Shown piece by piece: positions 28,288-40,086 of a stretch of DNA of 64,000 bases (position 1 is its first letter; each line of letters starts with the position of its first letter). Below the pieces are notes generated by a model. The model was not told where the DNA came from and ran no database searches. It worked only from the letters and a program-made list of their open reading frames with translations. The stretch covers positions 1 through 64,000 of the forward strand of contig NZ_FNMZ01000003.1 in NCBI RefSeq assembly GCF_900106695.1, given 5' to 3'. The stretch is from Albimonas donghaensis. Its GTDB lineage: Bacteria > Pseudomonadota > Alphaproteobacteria > Rhodobacterales > Rhodobacteraceae. The translations under genes and the position numbers were made by a program.

Positions 28288-30474
28288 TCAGTCGCCGAAC
28301 CCCTCCGAAAACCGGCCGAAGCGGTCGCGCGGAGAGGTCGGGCGACGGGCGCGGACCGGCGAGGGCTCGGGCGCCATCGCGTCGGTCAGCGCCACCCCCG
28401 CCGGCCGGATGTCATGTTCGGCCAGCATCCGCGCGGCGGCGCGCAGCGATTCCCGGCGCGTGACCCCGTCGCGGGCCAGCAGCAGCACCCGGTCGGCCCG
28501 CGCGGCCAGCAGGAAGCCGTCCGCCGCCGTCAGCAGGGGCGGCGTGTCCAGCACCACCACGTCGAACCGCCGCCGCAGGGCGGCCAGCAGCGCCGTCATC
28601 GCCGGCCCGGCCAGCAGGTCGGCGCGCCAGGCGGGGGCGGGCTCGGCCGGCAGGACCGAGAGGCCGGTGGCCGTGTCGGTCCACAGCACCTCATCCAGCG
28701 GGGCGGCGCCCTCCAGCGTCTCCAGCAGGTCCACCGCGCCCTCCAGCCCGAAGCGGGCGGCCTGGCCCGGGGCGCGGATATCGGCGTCGACCAGCGCGGT
28801 GCGCAACCCGATGCGCGCGCAGCTCTCGGCCAGCAGCGCCGCGGTTTCCGAGCGGCCTTCGCGCGGGCCCGGAGAGGTCACGGCGATCACCAACGGCGGG
28901 CGGGCGGCGGTTTCGGCGAAGCCCGCGGCGGCGGAGACGGGCGCGATCAGCCGCGCGCGCAGGCCGCGCACCGCCTCGGCCAGCGGCCCGGCGGGGCGGG
29001 CGCGGACCTGGGCGAGCAGGCCGGCCGCGGCGCCGCCATCGCCCTCGAACCCGCCGCGCCCGGCCAGTCCCGACCGCGCCGCGCCCCCGAACCGCGTCAC
29101 GGCGGTGCGGGGCAGCGCGGCCAGCGCCGGGATCCGGGCCTCGGCGGCGGCGTCCTCCAGGCTGCGCAGCGCACGGTCCGAGGCCTCCGCCGCCAGTCCC
29201 GCCATGCCCGCCGCGGCCAGCCCCCCGCCCAGCGCCGCAAGCAGCGCGGCGGCGGCGGGAAGGCGTTCCGGCATCGCCGGGGGCAGGGCCGGGCCGGCGA
29301 GGCGGATATCGGACCGCTCCGGCCCCGCCTCGTCGCCCAGCGCCTCGGCGCCGGCGCCGGCCACCGCCTGCAGACGGCTCAGCGTGGCGTCGCGCAGGGC
29401 GCCCAGCGCGCGGGCCTCCCCGGCGCGGGCCAGCAGGTCGGGGTCTTCGCGGGCGCGGGTTTCGGCGGCGGCGCGCCTGTCGGCCAGCTCGGCGCGCATC
29501 GCCTCCAGCCGGTCCTGCGCCGCCCGCCATTCGCGGCGCGCCCGACCCTCGTCGGCGCGGGCGGCGGCCAGGGGCTCGCCCACCCCGCGGGTCCGATAGG
29601 CGTCGAGCGCGCTTTCATGCGCCCGCAGCCGCTGCTCGCCCTCCGCCAGCTCCGCGGCCGAGGCCGAGCGCAGCGCCGCGCGTCTCGCCTCGGCCGCGGC
29701 CTCGGCGGCGGCGAGACGGGCGGTCAGCCCCTCCAGCCGATGAGCGAGCAGCCGGGCGGCGCGTTCCTCGGCCGCGATGCGTTCGGCCAGGCGGTCGCGG
29801 GCGTAGAGATCGGCGAGGCTGTTGGCGATCAGCGCGGCGAGCCCGGGATCGGCCGCCTCGACCCGCAGCGCGACCCCCGCCCCCCCCGCCGCCGGGGCCG
29901 CCGAGACCCGGCCGACCAACCGCGCGGCGGCGCGGCCGCGCAGGGCCTCCGCCGGCTCCGGGGCGGGCGTCGGGGGCGACCAGCCCAGCGCGGCGCGGGC
30001 CGCGTCGCCGAGCCCGGCCGCCACCCGCTCCGTCGCCCCCGCCAGCGCCGCGTCGAGCCTCAGCGGATCGGCGAGGGCGGCGAATTCCTCGGTGGTTTCC
30101 AGGCGCAGCCCGTCCGAGACCCGCGCCAGCAGGGCCGGGGACAGCAGGCAACCGATCTCCGCCTCCGCCATCGCGCGGGAGGCGGGCGCCCCGCCGGCCT
30201 TCGCCTCCGCCTCGGCCGCGGGGGACGGCAGCAGGATCACGGTTTCGGCCGCGTAGCGGTCGGGGATGAGGTCGAGCGCCAGCAGGATCAGCGCCGCCAC
30301 CCCGAGCCCGACCCGCAGCATCAGCCCCCGGCGTCGCCGCCACGCCGCCCGGGGGGAACGCGCGCCCCCCCGATGGCGCGCCGCGGACCGCCGCAGGCCG
30401 CCCGCGCCCATCCCCACCGCCGCCGGGCGGCGATGGCGCGCTTCGAGCGCGTCGACGGGATCCCTCGCCTTCAT
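28288..30474 (-). CDS. Wzz/BY-kinase-like exopolysaccharide chain-length protein with degenerate P-loop
   Basis: A 728-residue protein with the polysaccharide co-polymerase plan. A basic N terminus precedes one transmembrane helix (about 51-70) and a periplasmic Wzz-like region. A long Ala/Arg/Glu-rich coiled coil (about 240-350) and a second transmembrane helix near 400-420 come next, followed by a cytosolic BY-kinase-like domain. Its P-loop reads SPGPREGRSET (534-544), where BY-kinases have PGEGKST: the essential Lys is Arg541 and the next Thr is Glu543. Walker A' (ALVDADIRAPG) and Walker B (VVVLDTPPLL) are kept. The C terminus has no Tyr cluster. No polysaccharide genes are adjacent. Autokinase activity is therefore unlikely; a structural co-polymerase role is inferred. 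Confidence 0.8.
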   Translation of the reverse strand: MKARDPVDALEARHRRPAAVGMGAGGLRRSAARHRGGARSPRAAWRRRRGLMLRVGLGVAALILLALDLIPDRYAAETVILLPSPAAEAEAKAGGAPASRAMAEAEIGCLLSPALLARVSDGLRLETTEEFAALADPLRLDAALAGATERVAAGLGDAARAALGWSPPTPAPEPAEALRGRAAARLVGRVSAAPAAGGAGVALRVEAADPGLAALIANSLADLYARDRLAERIAAEERAARLLAHRLEGLTARLAAAEAAAEARRAALRSASAAELAEGEQRLRAHESALDAYRTRGVGEPLAAARADEGRARREWRAAQDRLEAMRAELADRRAAAETRAREDPDLLARAGEARALGALRDATLSRLQAVAGAGAEALGDEAGPERSDIRLAGPALPPAMPERLPAAAALLAALGGGLAAAGMAGLAAEASDRALRSLEDAAAEARIPALAALPRTAVTRFGGAARSGLAGRGGFEGDGGAAAGLLAQVRARPAGPLAEAVRGLRARLIAPVSAAAGFAETAARPPLVIAVTSPGPREGRSETAALLAESCARIGLRTALVDADIRAPGQAARFGLEGAVDLLETLEGAAPLDEVLWTDTATGLSVLPAEPAPAWRADLLAGPAMTALLAALRRRFDVVVLDTPPLLTAADGFLLAARADRVLLLARDGVTRRESLRAAARMLAEHDIRPAGVALTDAMAPEPSPVRARRPTSPRDRFGRFSEGFGD

Positions 30475-30518: not shown

Positions 30519-31262
30519 TTAACAGGTCGTAACCCCGCCGGACCTGCGCCGCGCGCCGAGGATGTTGAGCGCCTCGACCGCCATGGAGAACCCCATCGCC
30601 GCGTAGAGATACCCGCGGGGCACGTGGAACCCGAGCCCGTCGGCGATCAGCACCAGCCCGATCATCAGCAGGAAGGCGAGCGCCAGCATGGCGACGCCGG
30701 GATGCCGCTCCACGAAGCCGGCCAGCGGCCCGGCGGCGAGGAACATGGCGGCGACGGCGACCACCATGGCGACGCTCATCACCGGCAGATGCGGGGTCAT
30801 GCCGACCGCGGTGATGATCGAATCCACCGAAAACACCAGGTCCAGCGCCAGGATCTGCGCCACCGCCGCGGCGAAGCCCGGATGCGGGCGCGGCGCGGCG
30901 CCGGCGTCATGGGCGATGGCGGCGACCCGGTCGTGGATCTCGACCGTCGCCTTCCAGCACAGGAACAGGCCTCCGCCCAGCAGCAGCAGGTCCTTCCAGG
31001 AGAAATCGAGCCCGCCCAGCGCGAACAGCGGCGCGTCGAGCCGCATGATCCAGGCCGCCGCGGCCAGCAGCGCCAGCCGCAGGCCCAGCGCCAGCGTCAG
31101 CCCGATGCGCCGCGCCTGCGCCCGCCGTTCGGGCGGCAGACGGTTGGTGAGCAGCGACAGGAACAGCAGGTTGTCGACGCCCAGCGCCAGTTCCATGACG
31201 ATCAGGGTCGAGAGCGCCGCCCAGGCGGCGGGATCGGCGAGCAGGGTGGAGATTTCGGACAT
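30519..31262 (-). CDS. TerC-family integral membrane protein
   Basis: A 247-residue protein with seven or so membrane spans. The two internally repeated acidic motifs, [15 protein letters not shown] near residue 25 and [15 protein letters not shown] in the second half, define the TerC/YoaE group. Members have been linked to tellurite resistance and, more recently, to manganese export or metalation of exported proteins. The conserved Asp residues within membrane helices (in VDN and VDS) are the presumed metal site. It lies 44 bases upstream of the Wzz-like gene, same strand. Confidence 0.9.
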
Positions 31263-31408: not shown

Positions 31409-32365
31409 TCAGCCGCCTCCGCGGGCGTGCAGGATCCGGCCGATGACGTTCAGCAGAAGCTGCGCCGCAAGCACCGAGGTCGAGCCCGTCGGGTCGTAAT
31501 CCGGCGCGACCTCGACCAGGTCCAGTCCCACGATCTCATGCCGCTTCGCCGCCGCGGCGAGCAGTTCCAGCCCCTCGTAATACAGGAACCCGCCATGGCT
31601 CGGCGTGCCCGTGCCCGGCGCGATCGAGGGGTCGAAACCGTCGATGTCGATGGTCACGTAAAGCCGCGCGCCCTCGGGGATCAGGGCCAGCACGCCCTCG
31701 ACCCCCAGCGCCCGCGCCTGTCGGACCGAGACGATCTTCGAGCCCATGGCCTCCGCGGCCTCGTAGCCCTCCTTCGCGGTGGAGGAGACGTTGCGGATGC
31801 CGACCTGCGTCAGCCCGGTCACCCAGGGCTTTTCGGCGGCCCGGCGCATCGGGTTGCCATGGCCGCGGGTGACGCCGTGGCGTTCGTCCACGAAATCGAG
31901 ATGGGCGTCGAGCTGCAGGATGTGGATGGGCCCGTGATCCTCGAAGGCCTCGATGCAGGGGATGTTGATCGAGTGGTCCCCGCCGATCACCACCGGCAGC
32001 GCGCCGGCGGCGAGGATGCGGCGGACGTCGGTCTCGATATTGCGATGCGAACCGAGGGTGTCGGTGTGGATGATGTCGGCGTCGCCCAGATCGACGATGC
32101 GGGCGCCCTCCAGGTAGGTCACGCCGTCCTCGTGGTCATAGGCGCCGCCATGGCCGAAGGCGAAGAGGGTCGAGGCCTCGCGCACGCCGCGGGGGCCGAA
32201 TCGCGCGCCGGCCCGCCACTGGGCGCCCGCGTCGAAGGGCGCCCCGAGAATGGCGACATCGGCGTCGATGGGCGCGTCGGGCGTGCGGAACGGGTATTTG
32301 CCGAAGGTGCAGATGCCGGTGAAGGGCAGATTCAGCCGCCCGGCGTCATAGGCGTTTCCAGACAT
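31409..32365 (-). CDS. speB: Agmatinase / ureohydrolase-family protein
   Basis: A 318-residue binuclear manganese ureohydrolase. Metal ligands are visible in VIGGDHS, LDAHLDF and the C-terminal DIDGFDPSIAPGTGTP. Agmatinase hydrolyses agmatine to putrescine and urea; arginase, guanidinobutyrase and guanidinopropionase share the motifs, so the exact substrate is uncertain. No polyamine genes are adjacent. The ATG at 32365 (MSGNAYDAG) gives the usual family length. It is divergent from the DUF2126 gene. Confidence 0.85.
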   Translation of the reverse strand: MSGNAYDAGRLNLPFTGICTFGKYPFRTPDAPIDADVAILGAPFDAGAQWRAGARFGPRGVREASTLFAFGHGGAYDHEDGVTYLEGARIVDLGDADIIHTDTLGSHRNIETDVRRILAAGALPVVIGGDHSINIPCIEAFEDHGPIHILQLDAHLDFVDERHGVTRGHGNPMRRAAEKPWVTGLTQVGIRNVSSTAKEGYEAAEAMGSKIVSVRQARALGVEGVLALIPEGARLYVTIDIDGFDPSIAPGTGTPSHGGFLYYEGLELLAAAAKRHEIVGLDLVEVAPDYDPTGSTSVLAAQLLLNVIGRILHARGGG

Positions 32366-32543
32366 GGGCGGGCGTCCTCCGGGCGGTGTCACGGTGCGCG
32401 CCCAGTGGACAGGCGGAAGCGCGCGCTGGCAACCGGGCGACGCCGCCGACGCGCGTCGAAACCGGAAACGGCCGCGCCGCCGCGCCATTCCCCGGGGCGC
32501 ATGAGCGGCCCGCGCGGGGACGCCGCGCCGCCCCCCCTTTCTA

Positions 32544-32614: not shown

Positions 32615-35600
32615 ATGAGCATCAACGCGGCGATCACGCATCGGACCACCTATCGGTACGACAAACCGATCAGCATGGGGCCCCAGGTCGTGCGCCTGCG
32701 CCCGGCGCCGCACAGCCGGACCAAGATCCTCGCCTACAGCCAGAAGATCTCGCCCGAGCCGCATTTCATCAACTGGCAGCAGGACGCCTTCGGCAACTGG
32801 CTCGCCCGGCTGGTCTTCCCCGAGAAGGTCGACCATTTCGAGGTCTGCGTGGACCTCGTGGCCGACATGGCCGCGGTGAACCCGTTCGACTTCTTCGTCG
32901 AGGACTCGGCCAAGTCGGTGCCCTTCGAATATTCCGCCGACGACAAGAAGGACCTCGCCCCCTACCTGGAAACCGGGCCGCAGGGGCCGCTGTTCGACAA
33001 GATCCTCAAGACCCTGCCCGAGACGCAGGAGCACACGGTCGACTTCCTCGTGGCGGTCAACCAGATCGTGCAGAACGCGGTCGAATACCTCGTGCGCCTC
33101 GAACCCGGCGTGCAGGAGCCCGAGGAGACGCTGGAGATCGGCTCCGGCTCCTGCCGCGACTCCGCCTGGCTGCTGGTGCACCTGATGCGCCACCGCGGGC
33201 TCGCGGCGCGGTTCGTGTCGGGCTACCTGATCCAGCTCACCCCGGATGTGAAATCGGTGGACGGCGCCTCGGGCCCAGATGCGGATTTCACCGACCTGCA
33301 CGCCTGGGCCGAGGTCTATGTGCCCGGCGCCGGGTGGATCGGGCTCGACGCCACTTCGGGTCTGCTGACCTCCGAGGGGCATATCCCGCTGGCGGCCACG
33401 CCCTCGCCCCGCTCCGCCGCGCCGATCAACGGCGGGCATGAGAAGGCGGAGGTGGAGTTCGACTTCTTCATGGAGATCCGCCGCGTCCGCGAGGAGCCGC
33501 GCGTCACCTATCCGTTCACCGACGCCGCCTGGGCCGAGATCGACGCCGCCGGCAAGCTGGTGGATGAGAAGCTGCGCGACGCCAACGTGCAGCTGACCAT
33601 GGGCGGGGAGCCGACCTTCGTCGCCGAATACGACCGCGACGCGCCGGAATGGAACGAGGCCGCCGTCGGCCCGACCAAGAAGGCCTATGCCGACAAGCTG
33701 ATCCGCCGCCTGCGCCAGCGCTTCGCCCCGGTGGGCGGCCTGATCCATCACGGTCAGGGCAAATGGTATCCGGGCGAGCAGCTGCCCCGCTGGGCCTTCG
33801 GGCTCTACTGGCGCAAGGACGAGGAGCCGCTCTGGTACAATCCCGAGCTGATCGCGCCCGAAACCTCGTCCGGCGCCGGCTACGCCGAGGCGCACAAGTT
33901 CACCGCCGCGCTCTGCGACGCGCTCGACGTGGACGCGGACATGATCGCCCCGGCCTACGAGGACGCGGCGCATTTCCTGCTGCGCGAGGCGGAGCTGCCG
34001 ATCAATCTCGACCCCGTGGACAACAAGCTCGACGATCCGATGGAGCGTCAGCGGCTCGCCCGCGTGTTCGAGCGCGGGCTGAGCCAGCCGACCTGCGTGG
34101 TGCTGCCGATCCAGGCCCAGCAGGCGCGGGCGCGGGCCGACCGGCGGCGGTTCTTCTGGGCTTCGGAGCGGTGGAAGACCCGGCGCGGCAAGCTTTACCT
34201 GACGCCGGGCGACTCGGCGGCGGGCTACCGGCTGCCGCTGTCCTCCCTGCGCTGGCTGCTGGAGGAGGACCGCCCCTACATGCACCCGCTCGACCCCTTC
34301 GCCGCGCGGGCCCCGCTGGCCCGGCGCACGGCGATGCAGGGGCGCGGCGGCACGGGGGTGAACCCGCAGGCCGGCGCCGTCGGCCAGTGGGCGCCCGGTC
34401 ACGGCCCCGGCGGCTCCCCCGCCCAGCCCGGCCACACGCCCATGCCCGTCCCCGGCGAGGTGCATCCCGAAGCCGCGATGAACACGACCTGGGAGCCCGA
34501 TCCCGGCGTCGCCATCTACGCCTCCGTGGTGCGCACCGCCATCACGGTGGAGCCGCGCGACGGCGTGCTGCACATCTTCATGCCGCCCCTGCCCTCCGCC
34601 GACAGCTTCGTGGATCTGGTCGCCGCCATCGAGGAAGCCGCGGAGGCCACCGGCCTGCCCGTGCAGATGGAGGGCTATTCCCCCCCCACCGATCACCGCA
34701 TGCAGAAGATCATGGTCACCCCCGACCCCGGCGTGGTCGAGGTCAACGTCCAGCCGGCCGAAAGCTGGGAGGAGCTGGTCGCGATCTCCGAAGGGCTCTA
34801 CGAGGACGCGCGCCACTGCCATCTCGCCACCACCAAGTTCCTCTATGACGGGCGGCAGGCGGGCTCGGGCGGCGGCAACCACATCGTGGTCGGGGGCGAG
34901 AGCCCCGATGTCTCGCCCTTCCTGCGCCGGCCGGACCTGCTCGCCTCCATCGTGCGCTACTGGCAGGTGCATCCGGCGCTGTCCTTCCTGTTCTCGGGCC
35001 AGTTCATCGGCCCGACCTCCCAGGCGCCGCGCATGGACGAGGCCCGCGACGACATCCTCTACGAGATGGAGATCGCGCTGGAGCAGGCCCCCAAGCCCGG
35101 CTGGGACATGCCGCTGTGGCTGGTGGACCGGATCTTCCGCAACCTGCTGACCGACCTGTCGGGCAACACCCACCGGGCCGAGATCTGCATCGACAAGCTC
35201 TATTCCCCCGACGGCCCCACCGGCCGCCTGGGGCTGGTGGAGTTCCGCGCCTTCGAGATGCCGCCGCATCCGCGCATGGCGCTGGCGCAGTCCCTGATCC
35301 TGCGCGCCCTGATCGCCTGGTTCTGGCAGAAGCCCTATGAACGCCCCCTGCGCCGCTGGGGCGCCGCGCTGCATGACCGCTTCATGCTGCCCCATTACGT
35401 CTGGGAGGACTTCCTGGAGGTGCTCGCCGACATCGAGGGGTTCCTCGGCGTGCGCATGGACCCCGAATGGTTCCGCGCGCAGTTCGAGTTCCGCTTCCCG
35501 CTCGCCGGCGACGTCAAGCACCAGGGCGTGACGATGGAGCTGCGCTCGGCCATCGAGCCCTGGCATGTGCTGGGCGAGACCGGGGCCATCGGCGGCACCG

Positions 35601-36037
35601 TGCGCTACGTCGACAGCTCGCTGGAGCGGTTGCAGGTGCGGGTGGAGGGCGATCTGGCCGACCGCTACGTGGTGTCGTGCAACGGCTGGGAGATGCCGCT
35701 GCGCGAGACCGGCCGCAAGGACGAGAAGGTGGCGGGCCTGCGCTACCGCGCCTGGCAGCCGGCGGAGTCGCTGCACCCGACCATCGGGGTGCACACGCCG
35801 CTGGTCTTCGACCTGTGGGACAGCTTCTCCGACCGCTCGGTCGGGGGCTGCGTGCTGCACTCGGCGCATCCGGGCGGGCGGGCCTTCGACACCCAGCCGA
35901 TCAACGACCTGGAGGCCGAGGGCCGGCGCCTGTCGCGGTTCGAGACCATCGGCCATACGCCGGGCCGGATGCGTCCGCTGTCCCCGCGGATCAGCCCCGA
36001 CCAGCCGCTGACCCTGGACCTGCGCCGCCAGCGCTGA
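32615..36037 (+). CDS. Transglutaminase fused to DUF2126 (circularly permuted GS-like amidoligase)
   Basis: A 1140-residue protein. Residues 1-80 are the bacterial transglutaminase N-terminal beta domain (THRTTYRYDKPISMGPQ). Residues about 150-260 are the papain-fold core with a complete triad: Cys180 (SCRDSAWLL), His229 (DLHAWAE) and Asp245 (GLDATSG). From about 325 to the end is DUF2126, opening with MGGEPTFV (329 on) and carrying GSGGGNHI (750-757), which recalls the glutamine-synthetase nucleotide/metal loops. Iyer and colleagues (2009) classed this as a circularly permuted GS-like COOH-NH2 ligase in a predicted peptide-tagging system. The start follows a weak GGCGGATCAG leader. It is the first gene of the locus, probably cytosolic as there is no signal peptide. 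Confidence 0.9.
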   Translation: MSINAAITHRTTYRYDKPISMGPQVVRLRPAPHSRTKILAYSQKISPEPHFINWQQDAFGNWLARLVFPEKVDHFEVCVDLVADMAAVNPFDFFVEDSAKSVPFEYSADDKKDLAPYLETGPQGPLFDKILKTLPETQEHTVDFLVAVNQIVQNAVEYLVRLEPGVQEPEETLEIGSGSCRDSAWLLVHLMRHRGLAARFVSGYLIQLTPDVKSVDGASGPDADFTDLHAWAEVYVPGAGWIGLDATSGLLTSEGHIPLAATPSPRSAAPINGGHEKAEVEFDFFMEIRRVREEPRVTYPFTDAAWAEIDAAGKLVDEKLRDANVQLTMGGEPTFVAEYDRDAPEWNEAAVGPTKKAYADKLIRRLRQRFAPVGGLIHHGQGKWYPGEQLPRWAFGLYWRKDEEPLWYNPELIAPETSSGAGYAEAHKFTAALCDALDVDADMIAPAYEDAAHFLLREAELPINLDPVDNKLDDPMERQRLARVFERGLSQPTCVVLPIQAQQARARADRRRFFWASERWKTRRGKLYLTPGDSAAGYRLPLSSLRWLLEEDRPYMHPLDPFAARAPLARRTAMQGRGGTGVNPQAGAVGQWAPGHGPGGSPAQPGHTPMPVPGEVHPEAAMNTTWEPDPGVAIYASVVRTAITVEPRDGVLHIFMPPLPSADSFVDLVAAIEEAAEATGLPVQMEGYSPPTDHRMQKIMVTPDPGVVEVNVQPAESWEELVAISEGLYEDARHCHLATTKFLYDGRQAGSGGGNHIVVGGESPDVSPFLRRPDLLASIVRYWQVHPALSFLFSGQFIGPTSQAPRMDEARDDILYEMEIALEQAPKPGWDMPLWLVDRIFRNLLTDLSGNTHRAEICIDKLYSPDGPTGRLGLVEFRAFEMPPHPRMALAQSLILRALIAWFWQKPYERPLRRWGAALHDRFMLPHYVWEDFLEVLADIEGFLGVRMDPEWFRAQFEFRFPLAGDVKHQGVTMELRSAIEPWHVLGETGAIGGTVRYVDSSLERLQVRVEGDLADRYVVSCNGWEMPLRETGRKDEKVAGLRYRAWQPAESLHPTIGVHTPLVFDLWDSFSDRSVGGCVLHSAHPGGRAFDTQPINDLEAEGRRLSRFETIGHTPGRMRPLSPRISPDQPLTLDLRRQR

Positions 36038-36060
36038 GCCTCCGCGACCCCCGATCTCAA

Positions 36061-36090
36061 GGCGCCCGGACCCGTTCCGGGCGCCTTTTT
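36061..36090 (+). terminator. Rho-independent terminator after the DUF2126 gene
   Basis: The 10-bp stem GGCGCCCGGA / TCCGGGCGCC with a 5-base loop runs into T5, starting 23 bases after the stop codon. It separates this transcription unit from the ATP-grasp unit downstream. From here to 36433 no gene is seen. Confidence 0.9.
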
Positions 36091-36433
36091 CATGGGGCCG
36101 GCGCCCGAAACCCGCGGCCCGGCGCCGCGGGCGCGCGGCCTTCCCCGGCGTCGGCGCCGTTTCCCTTCGCGCTCCGATCCGGCCGCCGGAAGCCGCTTCG
36201 CCTCGCTGATGATCGCGAAACGCAACGAAATCCACGCGCCGCAGCGGTTTCCCGCGGCCCCCGCGCCGAAACGTCCCGCGCCCCGCGCCCCATGGCGCGC
36301 GACGTCAGGCGAAAGCCCGGTCGCGCTCGAACGACCCGCAGCCTTGGCAACCCGCCCCCCCGCCGTCATACTTCGCGCGCCGCGCAACCGGCGACCGCGC
36401 TGCGCGGCCGCCGCGATGTCGGCCGCATGCGCG

Positions 36434-36452
36434 TTTGAAACGCCGCGCGACT
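36434..36452 (+). promoter_or_regulatory. Second copy of TTTGAAAC-N5-GCGACT, upstream of the ATP-grasp/Alpha-E gene
   Basis: Same two blocks and spacing as at 32544-32562, here 41 bases before the ATG. Because a strong terminator follows the DUF2126 gene, this unit needs its own promoter, which makes a shared promoter or activator element likely. Confidence 0.5.
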
Positions 36453-36483
36453 CAAGGACTTCGCCAGCGTCTCAAGGACTTCG
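36451..36483 (+). repeat. 13-base direct repeat in the leader of the ATP-grasp gene
   Basis: CTCAAGGACTTCG occurs at 36451-36463 and again at 36471-36483, a 20-base period, immediately before the AAGGAG ribosome-binding site. The first copy touches the shared upstream motif. It may be a two-turn protein-binding array or a small duplication. Confidence 0.8.
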
Positions 36484-36493
36484 AAGGAGCTTC

Positions 36494-39004
36494 ATGCCCG
36501 CCGTCGCCCGTCTCGAAGAAGATCTTCGGGACCTGTTCGCCCATTATTCGGCCCATCGCACCGACCGCGCTCATGACGAGGCGCTGGACGGCGAAGGAGG
36601 CTTGCGCCCGCATTGGCGCGGCCTGATGGACTGGGCGCGCCGCGCCGGCCCCGACGGCTATGAGGCGGTGGTCGGCGAAACCCGACGCCTGCGGCTGGAA
36701 TCCGGCGTCGCTTTCGACCCGACCGGCGGCGCCGATGTCGCCGCGGCGGCGGCCGACGCCTTCCCGGTGGTGATCTCGCCCGAGGAATGGGCCGGGATCT
36801 CCGCCGGCGTCATGCAGCGCGCCCGGCTGATCGAGGCCGCGCTGGCCGACCTCTACGGCCCCCGGACCGCGTTGAAGGAGGGGATGCTTCCCCCCGGCAT
36901 GGCCTTCGGCAACCCCGATTTCGCGCTGTGGCGCACCGGCTGGCCGGAACAGGACGCGCCCTGGCTGACGCTCTACGAAATGGATCTGGCCCGCGGCGCC
37001 GACGGGCGCTGGATGGTGCTGGCCGACCGGGTCGACGCGCCGCTGGGCGACGGCTGGATGGTCGCCAACCGCGTGGCCTCGTCGCAGAGCTTCGCCGAGC
37101 CGTTCCTCTCGGGCGGCATCCGGCGCATCGCGGGGCATTACCAGGGGCTCCAGCAACTGCTGGAGGAGGCCACCGGGCTCGACGGCCGGCTGGCGCTGAT
37201 GTCCGGGGGGGCGCGCGATCCGCGCTATTTCTCCCACGCCTATTTCGCCCGCTACATGGGCGCCGCCCTGATCGAGCCCGCCGACGTGACGGTGCGCGAG
37301 GGCGGGGCCTTCGTGAAGACGGTCGAGGGGCTCAAGCCCCTGTCGGTGCTGCTGCGCGGCGTGCATTCGCATCACCTGGAGGCGCTGTTCCAGCCCGCCA
37401 CCGCCACGGTCGGCGCCCCGGCGCTGTCGCTGGCCCAGCGGGCCGGTCGGCTGCGGCTGGCGAACGGGCTGGGCGCCTCGGCCTTCGCCTACCGGGCCAT
37501 GGCGCCCTTCGCCCATGCGCTCAGCCAGTTCTTCCTGGACGAGGACCTGCGCATCGCCGATGCGCCCTGCCTGTGGATGGGCGACCCCGCGGCGCGCGAA
37601 CAGGCGATGGACGAGCCCGAACTGTGGCGGCTGGAGCGGATCAGCCGCGGTCCCCTGCAGAACCGCGACGCGCCGACCCTGATCCAGAGCGACCGCGACG
37701 CGCTGGCCGGCTTCCTGCGCCGGCACGGGGAACGGCTGGCCGCCGTCGCCACGCCGCCGCTGTCCACCACGCCGGCCTGGCGATCCGGCGCGCTGGCCCC
37801 GCGGCAATGGATGATGCGGGTCTTCGCCAGCCTCACGCCGGGCGGCTGGTCCGTCGCCCCCGGCGGCGTCGCCACGCTGGTCGAACCCGGCTGCGCCCCG
37901 CCGCCGCTGGGTTTCGGCAAGGATGTCTGGATCCCCGCCCGCACCGCCGAGGAGGCCCGCCCGGCCCCGACGCTGGAGCGCAGGCTCGCCCGCACCCACC
38001 TGCGGCGCACCGGCGGCGATCTCCTGTCCCGGGTGGCCGACGACCTGTTCTGGCTGGGCCGCACCGCGGAGCGCGCCGACGTCACCCTGCGCGCGCTGCG
38101 CGGCGTGATCGACCGCATGGTCTCGGGGCAGGAGGAGGACGACAGCCCCGAAGTGCTCGCCGCCATCCTCGAAATCCAGGCCGGCCCCAACGACAACCGC
38201 GCCGGCATGGCCCGCGTCCGCGACGCCATCGCCCGGCTGACCAGCGATCACCATGAACCGATGGGCCTCGCGCCCCTGCTGGGCGCCCTGCGCCGCACCG
38301 GACAGCGGGCCCGGCCCTATCTGTCGGAGGAAAGCTGGCGCTCCATCGACCGGCTGACCACCGACACCGGCTGGCGGTCGCCGCCGCCGCCGCAGAACGC
38401 CTCGGCCCTGCTGCGGCTGATCGACGAAAGCCTGCTGGCGCTCGCCGCCTTCGCCGGCACCACGCAGGAGAACCTGACCCGCAACCATGTCTGGCGCTTC
38501 CTGGAGCTGGGCCGATCGATCGAGCGGGGCCTGTCCTTCGCCCGCGCCGCCGAGGCGCTGGCCGGCCGCCGCAACGAGCCCGACGAAAGCTGGCTGCGCG
38601 CCTGGCTGACCCTGCTCGACAGCCGCACCGCCTACCGGACCCGCTACATGACCGTGCCCGCCCCCGCGCCCTGCATGGACCTGCTGGTGCTGGACGAACA
38701 CAACCCGCGGTCGCTGGTCTATCAGCTCATGCGGATCGAGGAGGCGCTCAACAACCTGCCCAATCCCGGCCCGCGCCGGTCCCGCGAATTGCGGCTGGCG
38801 ATGCGGGTGCTGATGGACGTGCGGCTCGCCGATCCCGAGCAGTTGGCCGAGGAGGACGAGGACGGCCGCCGTCCCGCGCTCAGCGCCCTGATCGTCGACG
38901 TCCGCGCCGCGCTGGCGGAGCTGTCGGACGAACTGGCGCGGTCCTTCTTCGCCCATACCCAGGCCCCCAGCCGGGTGGGCCTGCGCGGGAGGCTGGAGGG
39001 ATGA
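36494..39004 (+). CDS. Circularly permuted ATP-grasp ligase fused to Alpha-E domain
   Basis: An 836-residue protein. Residues 1 to about 480 are the COG2308/DUF404-DUF407 circularly permuted ATP-grasp domain, with SGGARDPRYFSHAYFARYMG, VRGVHSHHLEALF-like LLRGVHSHHLEALF and ANGLGASAFAY matching conserved blocks. From 510 (LLSRVADDLFWLGRTAERAD) to about 825 is the all-helical Alpha-E domain (COG2307), usually a separate gene. It is predicted to form amide bonds using ATP together with the GS-like ligase upstream; no substrate is known. The start at 36494 follows AAGGAG at a good distance. Its stop overlaps the next gene by ATGA. Confidence 0.9.
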   Translation: MPAVARLEEDLRDLFAHYSAHRTDRAHDEALDGEGGLRPHWRGLMDWARRAGPDGYEAVVGETRRLRLESGVAFDPTGGADVAAAAADAFPVVISPEEWAGISAGVMQRARLIEAALADLYGPRTALKEGMLPPGMAFGNPDFALWRTGWPEQDAPWLTLYEMDLARGADGRWMVLADRVDAPLGDGWMVANRVASSQSFAEPFLSGGIRRIAGHYQGLQQLLEEATGLDGRLALMSGGARDPRYFSHAYFARYMGAALIEPADVTVREGGAFVKTVEGLKPLSVLLRGVHSHHLEALFQPATATVGAPALSLAQRAGRLRLANGLGASAFAYRAMAPFAHALSQFFLDEDLRIADAPCLWMGDPAAREQAMDEPELWRLERISRGPLQNRDAPTLIQSDRDALAGFLRRHGERLAAVATPPLSTTPAWRSGALAPRQWMMRVFASLTPGGWSVAPGGVATLVEPGCAPPPLGFGKDVWIPARTAEEARPAPTLERRLARTHLRRTGGDLLSRVADDLFWLGRTAERADVTLRALRGVIDRMVSGQEEDDSPEVLAAILEIQAGPNDNRAGMARVRDAIARLTSDHHEPMGLAPLLGALRRTGQRARPYLSEESWRSIDRLTTDTGWRSPPPPQNASALLRLIDESLLALAAFAGTTQENLTRNHVWRFLELGRSIERGLSFARAAEALAGRRNEPDESWLRAWLTLLDSRTAYRTRYMTVPAPAPCMDLLVLDEHNPRSLVYQLMRIEEALNNLPNPGPRRSRELRLAMRVLMDVRLADPEQLAEEDEDGRRPALSALIVDVRAALAELSDELARSFFAHTQAPSRVGLRGRLEG

Positions 39005-40086
39005 GCACGCTGCGCATCCTGCATTCCACCCGCTACGCCTACGGCGCGCCGGCGGCGTTTTCGCAGCACCTGCTGCGCCTGACCCCGCCGTCCAACGCCG
39101 AGCAGACCGTGCTGGAGGCGGAGGTCACCGTCTCCCCCCACCCGCAGGAGCGGGCGGGCTATACGGACGCCTTCGGCAACGCGCTGGAGACCGCGACCGT
39201 CACCGAGCCCCACGAGACGCTGGAGATCACCCTGCGCTGCGTGGTCGAGCGGCTGGAGCGCGAGGAGCCGATGCTGGGCGCCTCGACCCCGTGGGAGCAG
39301 GCGGCGCGCATGGCCATGGCGCCGGCGGGGCTGGAGGCGGCGCTCTACGCCTATCCGACGCCGCTGACCGACGCCGACGCGGAGATCGAGGCCTATGCCC
39401 GCGAAAGCTTCGAGCCCGGGCGCCCGGTGCTGGAGGCGGCGCGGGAGCTTTGCGCGCGCATCCACAAGGATTTCAAGTATCTCCCCGGCTCGACCACCGC
39501 CGAAACGCCGGCCGGCGCCAGTTTCGCGGCGCGCGAAGGCGTCTGCCAGGACTTCGCCCATGTGATGCTGGCCGCGATGCGGGCGCTGCGCCTGCCCTGC
39601 GCCTATGTCTCGGGCTACCTGCGCACCCTGCCCCCGCCGGGACGGGCGCGGCTGGTGGGCGCGGACGCGACCCATGCCTGGGCCTCGGTCTGGGACCCGT
39701 CGGTGGGCTGGGTGCAGTTCGACCCGACCAACGACATGCAGCCCGGCGCGGATCACGTCATGTCCGCCATGGGCCGCGACTACGCCGATTGCGCGCCGGT
39801 GACCGGGCTGGTGGTCGGCTCGGGCGGGCAGATGCTGTCGGTCTCGGTGGACGTGGCCTCGCTGGAGGAACTGGAGGCCGAGCGCGACGCCGCCCTGATC
39901 CCCGACCCCGCGGACGCGGCGCCCGCCCCCCCTGCGCCGCCGTTGCAGCCGGCGCCGATCGCGTCCTCTCCGGCGCCCGAGACCCCGCCGGTCAACGATC
40001 CGGCCACGGGCGCCGCGGCACGGGCCGCGCAGGCGACGCTGCATGGGCTGAGCCAGGACGACACGCCCCCCGACGACGACGTGTGA
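39001..40086 (+). CDS. Transglutaminase-like cysteine protease, amidoligase locus
   Basis: A 361-residue stand-alone transglutaminase-like protein. The N-terminal beta domain opens LRILHSTRYAYGAPAAFSQH, and the core carries Cys182 (GVCQDFAHVM), His225 (DATHAWASV) and Asp241 (QFDPTND), a full papain-like triad. A Pro/Ala-rich tail of about 65 residues follows from 295 and looks disordered. Such proteins act as proteases or amide hydrolases rather than cross-linkers. Translational coupling to the ATP-grasp/Alpha-E gene suggests it processes or removes the product of the ligases. In many genomes a proteasome-like NTN hydrolase follows; here an opposite-strand acetyltransferase does. Confidence 0.9.
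   Translation: MSTLRILHSTRYAYGAPAAFSQHLLRLTPPSNAEQTVLEAEVTVSPHPQERAGYTDAFGNALETATVTEPHETLEITLRCVVERLEREEPMLGASTPWEQAARMAMAPAGLEAALYAYPTPLTDADAEIEAYARESFEPGRPVLEAARELCARIHKDFKYLPGSTTAETPAGASFAAREGVCQDFAHVMLAAMRALRLPCAYVSGYLRTLPPPGRARLVGADATHAWASVWDPSVGWVQFDPTNDMQPGADHVMSAMGRDYADCAPVTGLVVGSGGQMLSVSVDVASLEELEAERDAALIPDPADAAPAPPAPPLQPAPIASSPAPETPPVNDPATGAAARAAQATLHGLSQDDTPPDDDV

Follow-up and report, generated by a model that had tools for sequence, protein, structure and literature searches.

We analyzed a three-gene cassette in a 64,000-nucleotide stretch of DNA from Albimonas donghaensis (contig NZ_FNMZ01000003.1, positions 1 to 64,000; hereafter the window) and found that its central gene encodes a predicted pseudoenzyme, a circularly permuted ATP-grasp domain stripped of its catalytic residues and fused to an Alpha-E domain. 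The cassette lies on the forward strand. Gene 1 (32615..36037; 1140 aa) encodes a transglutaminase (TG) domain fused to DUF2126, a putative glutamine synthetase (GS)-like ligase domain; gene 2 (36494..39004; 836 aa) encodes the ATP-grasp/Alpha-E fusion; and gene 3 (39001..40086) encodes a second transglutaminase-like protein. We give an even chance to the reading that we favor, in which the cassette serves as an accessory module for amide bonds and works in trans with an active operon encoding the proteasome-like peptidase Anbu, probably in nitrogen scarcity, with the gene 2 pseudoenzyme as a scaffold or carrier.

The ATP-grasp half of the fusion is a predicted pseudoenzyme

An earlier reading of this DNA, made from its letters without database searches (the sequence-only reading), had proposed the domain content of the three genes, and Pfam profile searches confirmed it, with matches for all three window proteins far above the cut-off. 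A search of NCBIfam at E 0.001 returned zero matches for the three. In protein 2, CP_ATPgrasp_2 scored 269 bits (~36764-37873, + strand) and Alpha-E 209 bits (~38021-38950, + strand). The ATP-grasp half has A-D-R where E-D-N is expected and lacks both the VVK and the GGxG motifs. These losses characterize the family: among 96 fused proteins, the E of the VLEDN motif is lost in 95 (the exception is at locus L132) and the N in all 96, with R in 89, while the lysine of VVK is retained in 15 and each glycine of GGxG in 8 to 24. By contrast, the E-x-N pair, the lysine and the Gly-rich loop are retained in all 19 stand-alone homologues compared and in the solved homologue 3n6x. We take the E-x-N pair to be the Mg2+ ligands of glutathione synthetases. 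Because protein 2 lacks the pair, the lysine and the Gly-rich loop that are common to the stand-alone homologues, we predict that its ATP-grasp half is a pseudoenzyme, and the same active-site losses would rule out gene 2 as an active ligase. The sequence-only reading had described the cassette as a complete core that looks active; the TG triads are indeed in place, but the ATP-grasp half does not fit that description.

In a tree of the ATP-grasp sequences, built with 95 of the 96 fused proteins after one of 115 sequences was dropped because of gaps, the fused proteins formed one group apart from the stand-alone ones (support 0.92; stem branch 0.96). Since they form a single group, the tree suggests one old loss of the active site, retained since. 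The structural model of protein 2 (pLDDT 86, pTM 0.85) matched 3n6x in Foldseek (E 7.6e-24) and also glutathione, glutathionylspermidine and trypanothione synthetases. Among the 50 Foldseek matches listed there was no fold relative of Alpha-E, and all matches beyond the synthetases and 3n6x had a probability of at most 0.23. The pseudoenzyme form is probably already known: the Pfam text for CP_ATPgrasp_1 reportedly mentions inactive versions that are often fused to Alpha-E.

The putative ligase domain of gene 1 looks intact

Protein 1 matched Bact_transglu_N (95 bits; ~32630-32863), Transglut_core (64 bits; ~33020-33352) and DUF2126 (1229 bits over 826/826 positions; ~33440-36025), all on the + strand, confirming that a TG is fused N-terminal to DUF2126. 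Its triad, Cys180/His229/Asp245, is present in 57/57 aligned proteins, the window one included. Protein 3 matched Bact_transglu_N with 90 bits and Transglut_core with 72 bits and carries the triad Cys182/His225/Asp241; in an alignment of 70 lone TGs that includes the copies from the window and from contig C12 of the same genome, the cysteine is present in 69, the histidine in 70 and the aspartate in 68, the remainder being gaps. All six triad residues stand exactly at the positions that the sequence-only reading had given.

An AlphaFold2 model of protein 1 (pLDDT 82, pTM 0.80) was similar in Foldseek to the TG-like structure 3isr and, more weakly, to YbdK (1r8g; probability 0.98, E 0.007) and to glutamine synthetases (probability up to 0.93). 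A sequence search placed 3isr on residues 139-259, and the YbdK and GS fold matches would then fall on the DUF2126 part, outside the TG. Within DUF2126, the candidate active-site residues E332, E686, E709, R854, E876 and R878 are present in 57/57 proteins and H756 in 56/57; equating them with GS residues is a motif reading. As judged from the alignment and the model, the DUF2126 ligase part looks intact. One relative, at locus L042 in genome G124, has a DUF2126 gene that, as assembled, is broken by two stop codons. The window's genome has five matches to the glutamine synthetase family, on contigs C9, C12, C14, C17 and C28, perhaps including amine-glutamylating paralogues.

The cassette recurs as a unit

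A scan of genome contigs with a DUF2126 alignment returned at least 591 relatives, and we used the best 80 by similarity to the window; because they were picked in this way, these loci are biased towards the window arrangement. A fused ATP-grasp/Alpha-E gene is present in 70 of the 80, accompanied in 66 of these by a lone TG, and the same-strand order DUF2126, fusion, TG is kept in 65/80. Five of the 80 loci have Anbu together with stand-alone ATP-grasp and Alpha-E genes and lack the fusion. Another five have neither the fusion nor the Anbu set; two of them (L074, L107) end no more than 0.6 kb 3' of the gene and three (L106, L146, L150) extend at least 5 kb on both sides. Conversely, Anbu was found near none of the 70 fusion loci in the fetched DNA, which in 47 of them extends 9 kb or more to either side of DUF2126. 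In some loci (L045, L046, L051, L110, L119, L134, L143 and L145) the fused cassette stands beside a stand-alone ATP-grasp/Alpha-E pair, an arrangement that fits a joint function.

A complete Anbu operon lies elsewhere in the genome

The sequence-only reading had expected a dedicated N-terminal nucleophile (NTN) hydrolase for this set and had proposed a genome search for one. The locus itself has none. The search found Anbu on contig C12, as part of a second operon, and we therefore rejected the idea that the genome lacks it. Genes for ATP-grasp (468 aa), Alpha-E (311 aa), TG (294 aa) and Anbu (245 aa) stand there in a row; this four-gene operon is absent at the window locus and present at L152. 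The C12 ATP-grasp has the complete motif set, and the C12 Anbu (C12:486089-486655) has a threonine after the initiator together with the conserved aspartate and lysine. A second strong match to the Proteasome family, at C12:786878, is presumably HslV.

We examined co-occurrence in two samples, of 190 class genomes and 299 phylum genomes, with lists compiled by hand from the scan results; because the sampled genomes are related, Fisher values overstate independence and the tests are descriptive. In the class sample, a stand-alone Alpha-E is present in 24 of 26 genomes with the fused form; the two that lack it have a completeness of 84% and 74%. The fused class leaves out G069 and G124, whose Alpha-E rows are partial; counting G069 (78% complete, no stand-alone Alpha-E) as fused would make it a third exception. 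The control genome of Synechococcus elongatus matched both DUF2126 and Alpha-E. Among the 29 DUF2126 genomes of this sample, stand-alone Alpha-E is found in 27 and Anbu in 21. In the phylum sample, Alpha-E in either form accompanies DUF2126 in 84/84 genomes, compared with 156/299 overall; Anbu is present in 51 of those 84, and Alpha-E in 100 of 101 Anbu genomes. These counts suggest that Alpha-E and ATP-grasp are the core of the system and that Anbu and DUF2126 have been added to it; the fused form seems to be an addition as well, one that depends on the core in trans.

Peptidase_Mx as a candidate second peptidase

Neighborhood clustering brought up Peptidase_Mx, a zinc-ribbon/HExxH protein (PF15887 366 bits, PF10005 109 bits), in 10 of 109 loci. 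A PF15887 match above 200 bits occurs in 11 genomes of the class sample and in 43 of the phylum sample, the latter count leaving out three of 46 (G373, G389, G458) with weak or partial matches; Alpha-E is present in 42/43 and DUF2126 in 31/43. By positions picked by hand, at least 13 of 48 Peptidase_Mx genes have Alpha-E or DUF2126 no more than 10 kb away. At L156, ATP-grasp, Alpha-E, TG and Peptidase_Mx follow one another on one strand in a layout like that of the Anbu operon; in the other seven Peptidase_Mx regions fetched from other genomes, a core gene was not seen within 17-18 kb. The copy in the window's genome (C28:244084-244791; L151:9001-10587; - strand) adjoins a TG-like open reading frame (ORF) on the + strand (L151:8097-8915).

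We rejected the idea that Peptidase_Mx simply replaces Anbu: among Alpha-E genomes with Peptidase_Mx, 32 have Anbu and 10 do not, a trend towards co-occurrence (p 0.06), and in G278, G359 and G459 the coordinates put the two peptidases close together. A literature search, judged by title, found no paper treating a link between Peptidase_Mx and the Alpha-E/DUF2126 system. We tentatively suggest, with less confidence than we have in the accessory module itself, that the cassette is a pseudoenzyme-based add-on unable to work alone, in which the dead fusion binds to, or regulates, the live ATP-grasp/Alpha-E encoded by the Anbu operon, and that Peptidase_Mx is a second dedicated peptidase.

Transcription signals and neighboring genes

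Gene 2 most likely starts at 36494 rather than at the ORF limit of 36092, given a GGAG ahead of the ATG and the onset of homology, and it overlaps gene 3 by 4 nt. Directly 3' of gene 1, at 36059..36087 (+ strand), RNA folding identified an intrinsic-terminator-like hairpin of 12 bp followed by a U run (-25.8 kcal/mol, z -4.7; 0/200 shuffles equally good), which is not among the entries of a consensus terminator scan. Measured from the stop codon of gene 1 to the residue at which gene 2 first aligns with its family, the gap is 496 nt; across 71 loci the median is 67 nt, and only two of them have a longer gap. The gap contains one sigma-70-like promoter match (36344..36372, + strand; 9/12 positions, in itself weak evidence), compared with 0.2 expected. 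Because of the hairpin, the long gap and the promoter match, genes 2 and 3 may form their own transcription unit in this genome. Further upstream lie a TerC-family gene (30519-31262) and a long ORF on the - strand (28288-30474) with a weak ParA match below the cut-off, perhaps of a polysaccharide chain-length/kinase type.

Proposed function and alternatives

Published data connect relatives of these genes to nitrogen. In extracts from PMC8050072, Pseudomonas putida Anbu (PP_2685) and circularly permuted ATP-grasp (PP_2688) were up on nitrate versus ammonium by log2 4.4 and 4.0, respectively, and urease and urea-transport genes rose alongside them. An NtrC regulon table for Burkholderia cenocepacia excerpted from PMC5491218 gives -8.2, -9.4, -9.4 and -6.0 for I35_5080-83 (DUF404/407, DUF403, TG and a large TG protein), figures that we read as fold change, and a passage of PMC3597751 associates these domains with urea metabolism in marine metagenomes. 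Sigma-54-like sites occur 5' of 7 of 78 DUF2126 genes versus 51 of 1600 random stretches; five of the seven genes, as remarked post hoc, are beta/gamma-proteobacterial. The literature searched reports no substrate for Alpha-E/ATP-grasp/TG systems. Three papers mention the system without a function in the portions available (PMC6414703, PMC8407117, PMC10672838), and those on RloB/RloC and on inactive TGs concern, in their corresponding portions, other ATP-grasp and TG proteins.

In the mechanism that we propose, the DUF2126 domain of gene 1, a putative ligase of the YbdK/GS type, would join a carboxylate to an amine at the expense of ATP, and the TG domain of the same protein would then cleave or transfer the amide, with gene 3 as a second amidase or transamidase. 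Gene 2, a glutathione-synthetase-type ATP-grasp that would have lost Mg-ATP binding and kept its fold, is fused to Alpha-E and would most likely serve as a scaffold or carrier delivering substrate to the ligase. The partner would be the active ATP-grasp/Alpha-E/TG/Anbu operon, and the response probably one to nitrogen scarcity. DUF2126 and the stand-alone ATP-grasp would thus be the ligases, and the TGs and peptidases the cleaving enzymes. We favor such an ATP-dependent cycle of amide ligation and cleavage because of the nitrogen regulation data and because, in the part of PMC6376114 concerned with the Anbu operon, Anbu was negative in peptidase assays, pull-downs of the operon proteins gave no specific interaction, and the operon's YbATP-grasp released phosphate from ATP.

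Several observations count against this proposal. DUF2126 is absent from 4 of the 26 fused-form genomes of the class sample, so the pseudoenzyme can exist without its supposed ligase. The YbdK and GS fold matches of protein 1 have modest E-values (0.007-0.05), and a profile-profile comparison of DUF2126 with GS and YbdK, in which the GS profile held three sequences only after a motif filter had passed over three of the genome's five GS paralogues, was not significant. The loss of Mg-ATP binding in protein 2 is read from its residues, and the pull-downs without a specific interaction speak against the proposed partnership in trans. The nitrogen data were obtained in other species and concern stand-alone or Anbu-type genes rather than the fused form, and a scan for sigma-54-like sites found none 5' of window gene 1, gene 2 or the C12 operon.

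Two other functions would use much the same enzymes. The cassette might belong to a small-molecule pathway that makes and recycles an amine amide conjugate (of a polyamine, or urea- or guanidine-derived), comparable to glutathionylspermidine or gamma-glutamylputrescine, and so stores or salvages nitrogen. The modeled fold similarities would suit such a route, the ATP-grasp fold being that of the glutathione, glutathionylspermidine and trypanothione synthetases and DUF2126 resembling YbdK and GS, as would the regulation together with urea and nitrate genes in the excerpted P. putida and B. cenocepacia data. An arginase-family gene (31409-32488, - strand) is the divergent neighbor of gene 1, but it lies outside the listed families that recur in at least 5 of the 109 loci, and we rejected it as part of the set. 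A proteasome-like Anbu is an odd partner for such a pathway, which we regard as rather unlikely. In peptide tagging, the ligases would build a peptide or attach it to proteins, and Anbu or another peptidase would remove it or degrade the target. The co-occurrence of ligases, TGs and a proteasome-like peptidase, with Alpha-E in 100 of 101 Anbu genomes, speaks for this, as does the phosphate release by YbATP-grasp in that part of PMC6376114. Against it, Anbu was not found in 33/84 DUF2126 genomes or near any of the 70 fused loci in the fetched DNA, and showed neither peptidase activity nor partner binding in the assays cited. For the peptide tag of the sequence-only reading, a search around 81 cassettes brought up no small ORF (25-115 aa) with conservation across lineages, which makes a tag gene next to the cassette somewhat less likely; the 12 largest ORF clusters came exclusively from Rhizobium-like or Mesorhizobium loci, shared 50-94% identity and seem to be artefacts that reflect the conservation of the surrounding DNA. 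A non-ribosomal or distantly encoded tag, or a metabolite product, is possible. Tagging as such we consider unlikely.

A different explanation is that gene 2 of the window is decaying and the cassette is heading for loss in this lineage. At the columns conserved among the fused proteins, protein 2 deviates more often than any other of 45 (23/103; next 13, median 4), and it has the second longest tip among the 95 fused proteins in the tree. Gene 2 is distant from gene 1 behind the terminator-like hairpin, and of the 14 other genomes of the same taxonomic family in the phylum sample a single one has DUF2126. Yet the ORF is unbroken over 836 codons, the Alpha-E half retains its strong Pfam match, the frame still overlaps gene 3, and gene 1 ranks only 4th of 57 in deviations at conserved columns. 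Decay seems improbable, and we retain the accessory amide-bond module as the favored reading. Alpha-E/ATP-grasp/TG systems are widespread, as the 156 of 299 sampled genomes with Alpha-E illustrate, and knowing the probably dead part, the gene dependencies and the co-travelling peptidase narrows future experiments. If DUF2126 and the stand-alone ATP-grasp are taken as the candidate ligases, the fused protein as a partner and nitrogen limitation as the condition, the question becomes more directly testable.

Comparison with known systems

The gene set is of a known kind that our analysis refines: it has been described before, as reportedly has the inactive fused form. In 2009, Iyer et al. reportedly predicted, according to citing papers, a peptide synthesis or tagging system of ATP-grasp, GS-like, TG, Alpha-E and NTN-hydrolase proteins. 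The sequence-only reading had matched the cassette to this system, and the gene set agrees: a TG-DUF2126 fusion, a circularly permuted ATP-grasp, Alpha-E and a second TG are clustered in both (PF09899, PF04174, PF14403, PF04168). The window cassette differs in that its ATP-grasp appears as the inactive fused form, in the absence of an NTN hydrolase at the locus, and in its probable division by the terminator-like hairpin. With the Anbu operon (ATP-grasp, Alpha-E, TG, Anbu), as presented in sections of PMC5666114 and PMC6376114, it shares homologous ATP-grasp, Alpha-E and TG genes, but it includes DUF2126, has no Anbu and carries an ATP-grasp without the catalytic residues. The ATP-grasp half of protein 2 shares its fold with glutathione and glutathionylspermidine synthetases and with 3n6x, from which it departs in the loss of the E-x-N pair, lysine and Gly-rich loop and in its fusion to Alpha-E. 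Finally, protein 1 appears to match the fold of YbdK, a GCS2-type ligase, and of glutamine synthetase outside its TG, and is distinguished from both by long inserts and by the fused N-terminal TG.

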